A DNA stretch of 64,000 nt from Marinobacter szutsaonensis (GTDB taxonomy: Bacteria; Pseudomonadota; Gammaproteobacteria; Pseudomonadales; Oleiphilaceae). The position numbers were made by a program, and so were the translations under genes. The notes beneath the pieces were generated by a model, which saw only the letters and a list, made by a program, of their open reading frames with translations, was not told where the DNA came from and made no database searches. Positions 16,709 to 36,249 of this stretch are shown here, piece after piece. Every line of letters starts with the position of its first letter. Position 1 is the first letter of the stretch. The stretch covers positions 52,732-116,731 of the forward strand of contig NZ_BAAAFC010000004.1 in the NCBI RefSeq assembly GCF_039523335.1, read 5' to 3'.

Positions 16709-16816
16709 GCGGTTGCAGGGATAGCTTTCCAAAAACCGCTACGAGCACGTCCATGTGCGCTTGTCTCAGGCCGTCCCTGGCCTTCGACATTTTTGGAAAG
16801 CTATCCCTGCAACCGC
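16709..16816 (-). repeat. intergenic inverted-repeat element, copy A
   Basis: Perfect 27-bp inverted arms (16709-16735 and 16790-16816; inner part GGGATAGCTTTCCAAAAA) around a 54-base centre. The centre, read on the minus strand, has the GGCCAGGGACGGCC palindrome (16769-16782) and CAAGCGCACATGGACGTG, shared with copies B and C. It sits between dcd and apbC. The flanking bases 16660-16708 hold an imperfect direct repeat of GGGCTGCGG. Confidence 0.85.
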
Positions 16817-16851
16817 GATCGGGCATAGTGCAAACCGGCCTGTGACGTCGG

Positions 16852-17952
16852 TCAGTGCTCAGTTACGGAAACACTTGAGATTGAACCAGACAGGTTACGC
16901 TCCCGGGTGGACAGCTCTGCCCCAACCCGACGGGCGATGTCCCGGTAACGGCGGGCCACTTCGGAGTCGGGCTCAGCGATAACGGAAGGAGTGCCGCCGT
17001 CGGTCTGCTCCCGGATGGTCATGTGCAATGGCAGCTGACCAAGCAAGGTTGTTTGGTATTCCGCAGCGATGCGCTCGCCACCGCCGTGGCCGAACAGGGG
17101 TTCTTCGTGGCCGCAGTTGCTGCAGATGTGGACGCTCATGTTTTCGATCACGCCCAGCACCGGGATGTCGACTTTGCGGAACATTTCGATGCCTTTTTTG
17201 CCGTCCAGCAGGGCGATGTCCTGGGGAGTGGTGACGATGACGGCGCCGGTGACCGGGACTTTCTGGGCAAGGGTGAGCTGGATGTCACCGGTGCCCGGGG
17301 GCATGTCGATGATGAGGTAGTCGAGTTCGTTCCAGAGGGTTTGCTGCAGCAGCTGCATGACGGCGCCGCTGACCATGGGGCCACGCCAGACCATGGGGGT
17401 TTTCTCGGTGACGACGAAGGCCATGGAGTTGGCTTGCAGGCCGTGGGCTTCCATGGGGACGAAGTACTTGTTTTCTCTCGTGTCCGGGCGTTTGCCTTCG
17501 GGCACGCCGAGCATCATGCCGATGCTGGGGCCGTAGATGTCGGCGTCGAGGATGCCGACTCTTGCGCCTTCAGCCTGCAGTGCCAGGGCGAGGTTGACGG
17601 CGGTGGTGGATTTGCCGACGCCGCCTTTACCGGAGGCCACGGCGATAATGTTCTTGACGCCTGGAACCGACGGGAGGTCTTTCTGGACTTTGTAGGAGTG
17701 GATTTTCTGGCCGACATGGACGTCGGCGCTGTCAACGCCGTCGACGTTTTCGAGGGCGTTGGTGACGATCTGTTTGAGCGCTCCGGCAATGCCTTTGGAC
17801 GGGTACGGCAGTTCGACCATGAGGGTGACTTTGCCGCTGTTGTCGGCACTCAGGTTTTTGACGGCGCCGAGGTCGTACAGGTCCTTTTCGAGATAAGGGT
17901 CCCGGTATTCGCGGACAGCGGCTTCGAGGGCCTGCTGGGAAATCTGGGTCAT
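16852..17952 (-). CDS. apbC: Mrp/ApbC-type iron-sulfur cluster carrier ATPase
   Basis: Cytoplasmic P-loop protein that binds and transfers Fe-S clusters. The 366-residue sequence has an N-terminal MIP18/DUF59 domain (about residues 1-90), Walker A GKGGVGKST at 108-116, the ILDADIYGPSI switch, the LIIDMPPGTGDIQL Walker B region, and the cluster-binding CxxC at Cys277 and Cys280 (ICSNC). The ATG is at 17952, divergent from metG, the pairing normal in gammaproteobacteria. The C-terminus has a Ser/Val-rich end of unknown relevance. Confidence 0.95.
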   Translation of the reverse strand: MTQISQQALEAAVREYRDPYLEKDLYDLGAVKNLSADNSGKVTLMVELPYPSKGIAGALKQIVTNALENVDGVDSADVHVGQKIHSYKVQKDLPSVPGVKNIIAVASGKGGVGKSTTAVNLALALQAEGARVGILDADIYGPSIGMMLGVPEGKRPDTRENKYFVPMEAHGLQANSMAFVVTEKTPMVWRGPMVSGAVMQLLQQTLWNELDYLIIDMPPGTGDIQLTLAQKVPVTGAVIVTTPQDIALLDGKKGIEMFRKVDIPVLGVIENMSVHICSNCGHEEPLFGHGGGERIAAEYQTTLLGQLPLHMTIREQTDGGTPSVIAEPDSEVARRYRDIARRVGAELSTRERNLSGSISSVSVTEH

Positions 17953-18142
17953 CGGGTTCTCCGGAATAAGCTCATGAACACGGAAACAGGTGTTTCAGGT
18001 GAAAAATTGCTGCTTGGAAGGTATCATCTGTGCCCGTTTCTGACCATATGGGGTCTTTACCTGGAGCAATCAATTCAGGACATGTAACAAAACCCCGTTT
18101 TTGTCTTTCCAACCCTTACCAACAGAAGGTTCGGACATCACC

Positions 18143-34730: not shown

Positions 34731-34782
34731 CATTTTGTTACCTGCCGGCTGCCGCCGGCAAGCAATTTTTTACCGCCGGACC

Positions 34783-36078
34783 TCAGCCCTGACCCTTGAT
34801 CTCGCTCAGGCCACGGTAAGGCGCCTTGCCATCCAGCGCTTCTTCAATGCGCAGCAACTGGTTGTACTTGGCAACCCGGTCAGAACGGCACAGGGAACCG
34901 GTCTTGATCTGGCCCGCGCAGGTGGCAACCGCCAGATCCGCAATGGTGGTGTCTTCGGTCTCACCGGAACGGTGGGAAATGACCGCGGTGTAACCCGCAT
35001 CCTGGGCCATCTTGATGGCATCCAGGGTCTCGGTCAGGCTTCCGATCTGATTGAACTTGATCAGGATGGAGTTTCCAACACCCTTCTCGATGCCCTGCTC
35101 CAGGATCCTGGTGTTGGTCACGAACAGATCGTCACCCACCAGCTGAACCTTGCTACCCAGCTTGTCGGTCAGCACTTTCCAGCCGTCCCAGTCGCTCTCG
35201 TCCATGCCGTCTTCGATGGAAACGATCGGGTAACGCTCGCACAGACCGGCCAGGTAATCGGCAAAGCCTTCAGAGTCGAAGCTCTTGCCTTCGCCGGAAA
35301 GCTGGTACTGGCCATCCTTGTAAAATTCGGAGGAGGCACAGTCCAGAGCCAGGGTGACGTCTTTGCCTAGCTCGTAGCCAGCCTTCTCAACCGCTTCCTT
35401 GATGGCAGCCAGCGCCGCCTCGTTGGACGGCAGGTTCGGGGCAAAGCCACCCTCGTCACCCACTGCGGTGTTCAGGCCCTGGGCCTTCAGCACCTTCTTC
35501 AGGCTATGGAAAATCTCGGCGCCCACACGCAGGGCTTCAGCAAAGCTCTTGGTGGCAACCGGCTGAACCATGAACTCCTGGATGTCGACGTTGTTATCCG
35601 CGTGCTCACCACCGTTCAGAATGTTCATCATCGGCACCGGCATGGAGAACTTGCCGGAAGTGCCGTTCACGTCGGCAATATGCTCGTACAGCGGCTTGCC
35701 CAGGGAGGCAGCAGCAGCTTTGGCGGCAGCCAGGGAAACAGCCAGAATCGCATTCGCACCCAGGTTGGCCTTGTTCTCTGTTCCGTCCAGATCAATCATG
35801 ACCTTGTCCAGCCCACGCTGATCAGCGGCATCTTTGCCCACCAGAGCATCACGGATCTTGCCGTTCACGGCTTCAACAGCCTTGCGAACACCCTTGCCAA
35901 GGTAACGGGACGAGTCACCGTCACGCAGCTCCAGAGCCTCCCGGGAACCGGTAGATGCACCGGAAGGCGCGCAGGCACGTCCGAGAGTGCCGTCTTCCAG
36001 GATAACGTCCGCTTCCACGGTCGGGTTACCGCGGGAATCCAGGACCTCACGGGCTTTGATGTTAGCAATCTTGGTCAT
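34783..36078 (-). CDS. eno: enolase
   Basis: Interconverts 2-phosphoglycerate and phosphoenolpyruvate; also part of the RNA degradosome in many proteobacteria. The 431-residue sequence starts [25 protein letters not shown], has [66 protein letters not shown], the catalytic Lys in [14 protein letters not shown] and [22 protein letters not shown]. The interval 36079-36278 to kdsA contains repeat element C. Confidence 0.99.
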
Positions 36079-36135
36079 TCGACTGATTCTCCAGATTTTC
36101 GATTTCTAAACGGTTCTAATGTGTAGCTGGGCATA

Positions 36136-36249
36136 GAGCAGGTGGGGGATGGCTTTCCGAAACTGTGCGGAGCCAGGGATGGCGGAGCCCAAGCGTCACA
36201 GGGACGTGCCGCAAGGAGCGTGTTTCGGAAAGCCATCCCCCACCTGCTC
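36136..36249 (+). repeat. intergenic inverted-repeat element, copy C
   Basis: Perfect 28-bp inverted arms (36136-36163 and 36222-36249; inner part GGGGGATGGCTTTCCGAAAC) around 58 bases with AGCCAGGGATGGC and CAAGCGTCACAGGGACGTGC. Related in arms and core to copies A and B but with different arm sequence. It lies between eno and kdsA. Confidence 0.88.

Follow-up and report, generated by a model that had tools for sequence, protein, structure and literature searches.

Dispersed, high-copy repeats of Marinobacter szutsaonensis related to TwoAYGGAY RNA: a candidate distributed reservoir for CsrA

The sponge RNAs CsrB, CsrC, RsmX, RsmY and RsmZ come from one or a few genes and carry many loops each. 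They present GGA motifs in hairpin loops, as do the elements described here, and according to the available part of PMC7652899 theirs bind CsrA dimers. TwoAYGGAY (Rfam RF01731, clan CL00106, which includes CsrC) was listed in 2010 from human gut, gamma-Proteobacteria and Clostridiales as a probable RNA without a likely cis-regulatory role (PMC2864571), and in 2014 it was proposed to bind CsrA, its tandem GA being noted (PMC4333381). Here, we analyse three inverted-repeat elements, A, B and C, in a stretch of 64,000 nucleotides (nt) of the M. szutsaonensis genome (contig NZ_BAAAFC010000004.1, positions 52,732 to 116,731; 'the window' below). Their family occupies many loci with two loops each, unlike the CsrB-type sponges. 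An earlier note on the window had recognised no named family; judged by sequence, the closest known one is TwoAYGGAY.

We favour, with slightly more confidence than doubt, a reading of the elements as a dispersed, high-copy relative of TwoAYGGAY, a structured RNA that would bind CsrA dimers and whose copies would jointly form a CsrA-titrating reservoir. The sequences show the copy number, the conservation of structure and loops, the strand specificity and the presence of a CsrA gene, from which transcription, CsrA binding and titration are predicted.

In both families a long outer stem encloses two hairpins whose loops read ANGGAY; the joining letters are similar, and a stem contains a tandem GA. 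The element loops are of the AYGGAY type, with N often G or A, so that the loop is ANGGAN and not strictly AYGGAY. They differ in that no copy of the own genome reaches the RF01731 gathering cut-off: there were 17 matches at E<=0.01, the best at 42.0 against 43 bits (54 of 209 candidates scored). Four copies in a set of ten loci matched at 31.6-38.2 bits, and at gathering score no Rfam family matched in the window. Microribonucleic acid (microRNA) families that matched perfect stems (Rfam, E<=5, ten loci) were discarded as chance. The RF01731 cut-off was exceeded in seven of 38 genomes, and all five fetched loci above it matched R1, a covariance model that we built from 32 copies of the present family, at 89.6-93.2 bits (L204, L206, L207, L208) and 50.0 bits (L205); the two families therefore overlap. 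The accessible text of PMC2864571 and PMC4333381 does not present TwoAYGGAY as a repeat that reaches about 100 copies per genome, has variable arms and occurs in both directions relative to genes, and among the literature matches listed the family was not described as a dispersed repeat. Our analysis adds high copy number, variable arms, both orientations, head-to-head pairs, a long variant and a strand test to what is known of TwoAYGGAY.

Structure, loops and the selected strand

Read on the strand that bears the loops (the loop strand), the order is stem base, arm, hairpin 1, AAGCG, hairpin 2, AGCG and 3' arm. The arms measure about 24-30 bp, with a 5' side that is G-rich, then often YTTCC, then RAAA or similar before hairpin 1; short cores are 53-58 nt long, and some copies have weak flank motifs, TTTGG ahead of the arms and CCCAAAG after them.

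Among the 32 aligned copies, the arm helix is paired in 99.1% of cells and has changed on both sides at 23 of its 24 pairs; such changes also occur at 4 of 11 pairs in hairpin 1 and two of four in hairpin 2. The 74.6% pairing of hairpin 1 reflects the scoring of its tandem GA as unpaired; its stem has GA/GA in 19 copies and other letters in 13, with Watson-Crick pairs in B and in L017. Sliding the partner by 1-3 columns lowered the pairing of the whole structure from 92.3% to at most 47.4%, and the covariation score was reached by none of 500 shuffles. The number of further pair types, reached by 15 of 500, was a less clear measure than the others.

The loops are nearly invariant. Removing duplicate and antisense matches left 87 of 119 rows for the own genome and 67 of 73 for relatives and other families. 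Loop 1 is ANGGAN in 86 of the 87 own copies (the exception is ATGAAT) and loop 2 in 84 (ATGGCC, ATGG and ATGGGC occur once each); the corresponding figures for the 67 distinct rows are 61 and 65. The second letter varies, in own copies T 50, G 22, A 14 and C 1 in loop 1 and T 43, G 41 and C 2 in loop 2. Hairpin 2 is often GUACAGGGAUGUA in other families, and the two GGA motifs are 20-22 nt apart in 82 of the 84 own copies that have both. In its available part, PMC7652899 gives an ANGGAN hexaloop for RsmE targets, with contacts to A and GGA, a CsrA consensus RUACARGGAUGU from systematic evolution of ligands by exponential enrichment (SELEX), with mostly six-letter loops, and a range of 10 to 63 nt over which CsrA bridges two sites. 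The element loops match both the hexaloop and the SELEX consensus, and their spacing lies within the bridging range.

Which strand folds can be read from the arm mismatches. Whichever strand is considered, a transition that strikes a paired arm is equally likely to leave G.T or A.C there. For the loop strand, own copies have 43 G.T, 6 A.C and 30 other mismatches, and copies of other genomes 21, 3 and 18. When partners were re-dealt among copies, G.T:A.C became near-even (227:204 own, 198:187 others), and base composition therefore does not explain the excess of G.T; the inner 18 pairs alone gave 13:4 and 12:2. By gene context, own copies gave 21:0 (co-antisense), 9:2 (convergent), 5:0 (divergent) and 8:4 (co-sense). 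The excess of G.T on the loop strand, complete in antisense copies, therefore indicates that one specific strand is selected: selection acts on the folded loop strand, also in places where the adjacent genes are read in the opposite direction. For antisense copies this argues against a hairpin role in the mRNA of the neighbours. Going by the sequences, the selected strand probably acts as RNA. The earlier note had offered a mobile element, a structured RNA or a processing site, and it is the structured RNA that the strand-specific wobble and the ANGGAN hexaloops favour.

The same comparisons bear on a functionless origin, in which a DNA process such as template switching at palindromes keeps the arms complementary. 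Close species do differ by paired changes in blocks and by transversions (at the C site, L086 compared with the window), as such a process would leave them; counted over close orthologous copies, the 242 paired changes comprise 146 transitions and 96 transversions (core changes number 92 transitions and 156 transversions; the comparisons are redundant in both counts). Such a process should, however, treat G.T and A.C alike, whereas we counted 43:6, and 21:0 in antisense copies; nor would it maintain the loops, which are conserved. We give it very little credence.

A folded single strand leaves the partner unspecified, and the repeat could be a structured RNA, or single-stranded DNA, whose GGA loops bind a protein other than CsrA or which marks an RNase or 3'-end protection site near gene ends. 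We regard this as unlikely, given that the near-invariant A and GGA with a free N are the positions listed for CsrA/RsmE and that the complete R1-positive genomes all carry CsrA; the proximity to gene stops reported below speaks in its favour.

The three elements of the window

The earlier note's inverted repeats were borne out, the arms lying exactly where it had put them around a common core, with A on the minus strand and B and C on the plus strand; its placement of all three between housekeeping genes, free of genes themselves, also held (apbC/dcd, ftsB/ispD and kdsA/eno). These neighbours were named by NCBIfam, FtsB with 97.5 bits, under its cut-off of 101. A, B and C head the ten inverted repeats of the window (copies at most 300 nt apart), their folds have z-scores of -7.5 to -8.6 against shuffled sequence, and GCCARGGAYGGC, with zero mismatches, was found window-wide at A, B and C only. 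The features are as follows.

16709..16816, minus: copy A, whole element from arm to arm, between apbC and dcd (both minus)
16790..16816, minus: copy A, 5' arm (core-sense strand), 27 bp, 100% match to the 3' arm
16762..16789, minus: copy A, hairpin 1, loop AGGGAC at 16773-16778, stem with tandem GA
16745..16758, minus: copy A, hairpin 2, GCAC-ATGGAC-GTGC, loop at 16749-16754
16709..16735, minus: copy A, 3' arm, 27 bp, 100%
34101..34291, plus: copy B, long-core variant, between ftsB and ispD, antisense to both
34101-34128 and 34264-34291, plus: copy B, arms, 28 bp, 93%
34129..34156, plus: copy B, hairpin 1, loop AAGGAT at 34140-34145, Watson-Crick pairs replacing the type-1 tandem GA
34157..34263, plus: copy B, extended part, extra hairpins replacing the simple hairpin 2; comparable extensions occur in other species
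36136..36249, plus: copy C, whole element from arm to arm, between kdsA and eno, antisense to both
36136-36163 and 36222-36249, plus: copy C, arms, 28 bp, 100%
36164..36191, plus: copy C, hairpin 1, loop AGGGAT at 36175-36180
36197..36208, plus: copy C, hairpin 2, CAC-AGGGAC-GTG, loop at 36200-36205

B is a longer variant with a core of 135 nt and an interrupted hairpin 2. Long cores of 133-138 nt with extra hairpins within hairpin 2 occur in B, in a second own copy in L003 and, outside the own genome, in L101, and those of L246 and L257, from the apbC-dcd spacer of two congeners, resemble the long variant of B. As a side observation, the long variant, in which about 80 nt with extra hairpins split hairpin 2, turns up at different sites and in different species, including L246 and L257 with their mismatched arms; it may be a unit of its own. 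Elsewhere in the window, a perfect 18-bp inverted repeat with a 5-nt loop lies between two minus-strand gene calls at 27102-27142; it looks like a terminator and is without the ANGGA core.

Copy number, gene context and history of the family

A dispersed short repeat family, as the earlier note had proposed, is what the searches found, with far more than three copies in this genome. Named relatives place the organism near M. pelagius within Marinobacter. R1 detects at least 87 copies in the own genome of 3.96 Mb (E<=0.01; best 150 of 2105 candidates scored), and the exact pattern CCARGGAYGGCN{2,20}CAAGCG matches 27 times, always with a gap of six, against one match for the reversed control. 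Hit counts in other genomes are likewise lower bounds, with at most 106 candidates scored per genome in a search of 38 genomes and at most 14 in a class sample. R1 matched in 29 of the 38 (own genome included), among them all 24 congeners, at 3 to at least 105 matches per genome. The class sample was positive in 42 of 274 genomes, own included (E<=0.001), and a phylum sample in 17 of 299 (E<=1e-4), every one of them within the class of the own genome. A plasmid collection gave no match to copy C, a phage collection none to copy A, and viral contigs none to two exact core patterns.

None of the 87 own copies overlaps a gene call (the gene caller was verified on the named genes of the window), and both orientations occur: 29 copies are co-antisense, 25 co-sense, 20 convergent and 13 divergent. 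Unpaired copies lie near gene stops in either direction, at a median of 33 nt (29 sense distances) and 34 nt (33 antisense distances). An apparent tendency of antisense copies to lie nearer to stops than sense ones was gone once paired copies had been excluded. Stable stems near stops would also fit bidirectional terminators or transcription roadblocks at gene ends, for which the long stem alone would matter. We consider this highly improbable: of the 87 own copies, none has a T-rich run within 14 nt past the stem when read along the loop strand and one has it in the opposite direction, the loops are almost invariant, B and C stand inside a string of same-strand genes, and kdsA has, by eye, its own hairpin overlapping the stop codon and then a T-rich run (about 36260-36290) just before copy C.

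Pairs less than 400 nt apart in the own genome are head-to-head in 12 of 12 cases (minus then plus, gaps of 61-175 nt; for example G000:C1:1080633-1080926), while 12 looser pairs (400-3000 nt) follow no orientation rule (5, 4 and 3 of the three kinds). Head-to-head dimers are also common among repetitive extragenic palindromic (REP) sequences, which the accessible text of PMC3733652 describes as 20-40 bp long, with family-specific stems and a tag. Together with the high copy number, the intergenic dispersal and the patchy distribution, this raises the possibility of non-autonomous mobile DNA, either a miniature inverted-repeat transposable element (MITE) or a REP-like one, whose spread would depend on a transposase recognising a single folded strand of DNA. 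The likeness to REPs and bacterial interspersed mosaic elements (BIMEs; GTAG and CGTC families) as short dispersed palindromes ends with the arms, which here vary from copy to copy around fixed loops; in a MITE the arms would be terminal inverted repeats, which are not conserved between our copies, and shared flank motifs are weak. In a comparison of 81 own copies, as many as five had the same core, yet at most 20 of 24 arm letters were shared by any pair, so that no recent whole-element copies are seen. Such a pattern is expected if the copies are old, with the loops held by function and the stem by pairing alone. Copy number also fails to track Y1 transposases: Y1_Tnp is absent from 11 of 25 genus genomes, nine of which have 56-105 R1 matches, and the transposase idea was dropped on this account. 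Separately, three congeners (G004, G012 and G020) have just 3-6 matches, and G004 has 22 Y1 transposase matches.

Across the genus, elements occupy many of the orthologous sites. A script found 24 elements among 52 loci at the B site (ftsB-ispD), all antisense; 33 among 52 at the C site (kdsA-eno), 20 antisense and 13 sense; and 12 among 30 at the A site (apbC-dcd), all sense, where L245, L248, L250 and L252 also carry an element whose variant core the script missed. Between species the arms diverge yet stay paired. In L093 the core is reversed within flanks like those of L094. L246 and L257 combine a left arm like one allele of the site with a right arm like another, pointing to recombination inside the conserved core. 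Where copies were lost, several sites show ragged deletions (L087 and L089 for B, L113 for C), and core-less arms are left in others (B in L123, C in L125 and L127). B spacers of just 9-13 nt (L092, L093, L109 and L125-L128) may be complete losses or sites that were never filled, and the latter would suit a mobile element. Two sites read by eye across the 52 loci had some tight spacers, and no target-site duplication was noticed. With many orthologous sites filled, ragged deletions at several emptied ones, divergent arms and nothing matching the queries tried in the collections of phages and plasmids or among viral contigs, the earlier guess of a mobile element finds no support as far as recent mobility goes, and we think mobile DNA quite unlikely.

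A putative CsrA reservoir

The own genome has one CsrA match, with L4 and R44 within its first 52 residues, both critical for RNA binding according to the available part of PMC7652899; these 52 residues also match solved CsrA/RsmE chains, the 2JPP series included. CsrA was found in 39 of the 42 R1-positive genomes of the class sample, the other three being 67, 75 and 88% complete. When completeness of 90% or more and contamination of 5% or less are required, the gene occurs in 32 of 32 R1-positive genomes against 212 of 236 overall (hypergeometric P 0.025, uncorrected for kinship). In genome G008 the CsrA family was matched three times, with two of the matches weaker, at 58.6 and 48.3 bits.

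In the CsrA reading, the transcribed loop strand would fold into a long stem, formed by the arms and capped by two short hairpins with ANGGAN hexaloops; one CsrA (RsmA) dimer would clamp both loops of a copy, and the roughly 90 copies together would act as a distributed reservoir, or sponge, that titrates CsrA. Copies lying in sense inside a transcript might also respond to CsrA locally.

Several points weigh against this. Sense and antisense placement are about equal (25 co-sense, 29 co-antisense), and at the C site, across orthologous loci, the core points antisense in 20 cases and sense in 13, an unusual arrangement for a transcribed RNA. Upstream of own copies we found no promoter signal, with 129 forward and 128 reverse -10-like sites; the idea of an own promoter was abandoned after a motif search gave weak flank motifs alone and the -10 counts showed no forward bias. 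The strand asymmetry is weakest among co-sense copies (8:4), and an excess of G.T over A.C could also come from single-stranded DNA. R1 was built from copies bearing the loops in question, so detection favours them, and long-core copies such as B lack the second ANGGA loop and retain one. The co-occurrence with CsrA is weak and ignores kinship, with 3 of 42 R1-positive genomes, all less than 90% complete, showing no CsrA. Some congeners have merely 3-12 copies, and the family is therefore dispensable. The long cores without loop 2, this dispensability, and the fact that binding and transcription are predictions are the reasons why our confidence in the CsrA reading stays only a little above doubt.

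The classical sponge genes were also looked for. The RsmZ model RF00166, the one sponge model run genome-wide, gave no match in the own genome at E<=0.1 and none over its cut-off in 24 genomes; weak matches (E<=0.1) occurred in 18 of the 24 and in 6 of 14 controls. The exact sequence TGTAAGN6CTTACA, which we take to be the GacA box, is present in 3 of the 24 genomes and was not found in the own one. A broader picture, which we put forward tentatively and with more doubt than conviction, is that many Gammaproteobacteria might carry a genome-wide distributed CsrA sponge of about 100 small RNA repeats, each for one CsrA dimer, with drifting stems and fixed loops. Such repeats might be selfish at the RNA level and exploit CsrA, or might act as a dosage buffer, and might largely replace the CsrB/RsmZ gene in this genus.

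The finding matters in that a family related to TwoAYGGAY occupies as many as roughly 100 loci in a single genome, and there is evidence that one strand is selected and that the loops are of the CsrA type. If CsrA does bind these elements, any estimate of how much free CsrA these bacteria contain would need to count a reservoir scattered over the genome.

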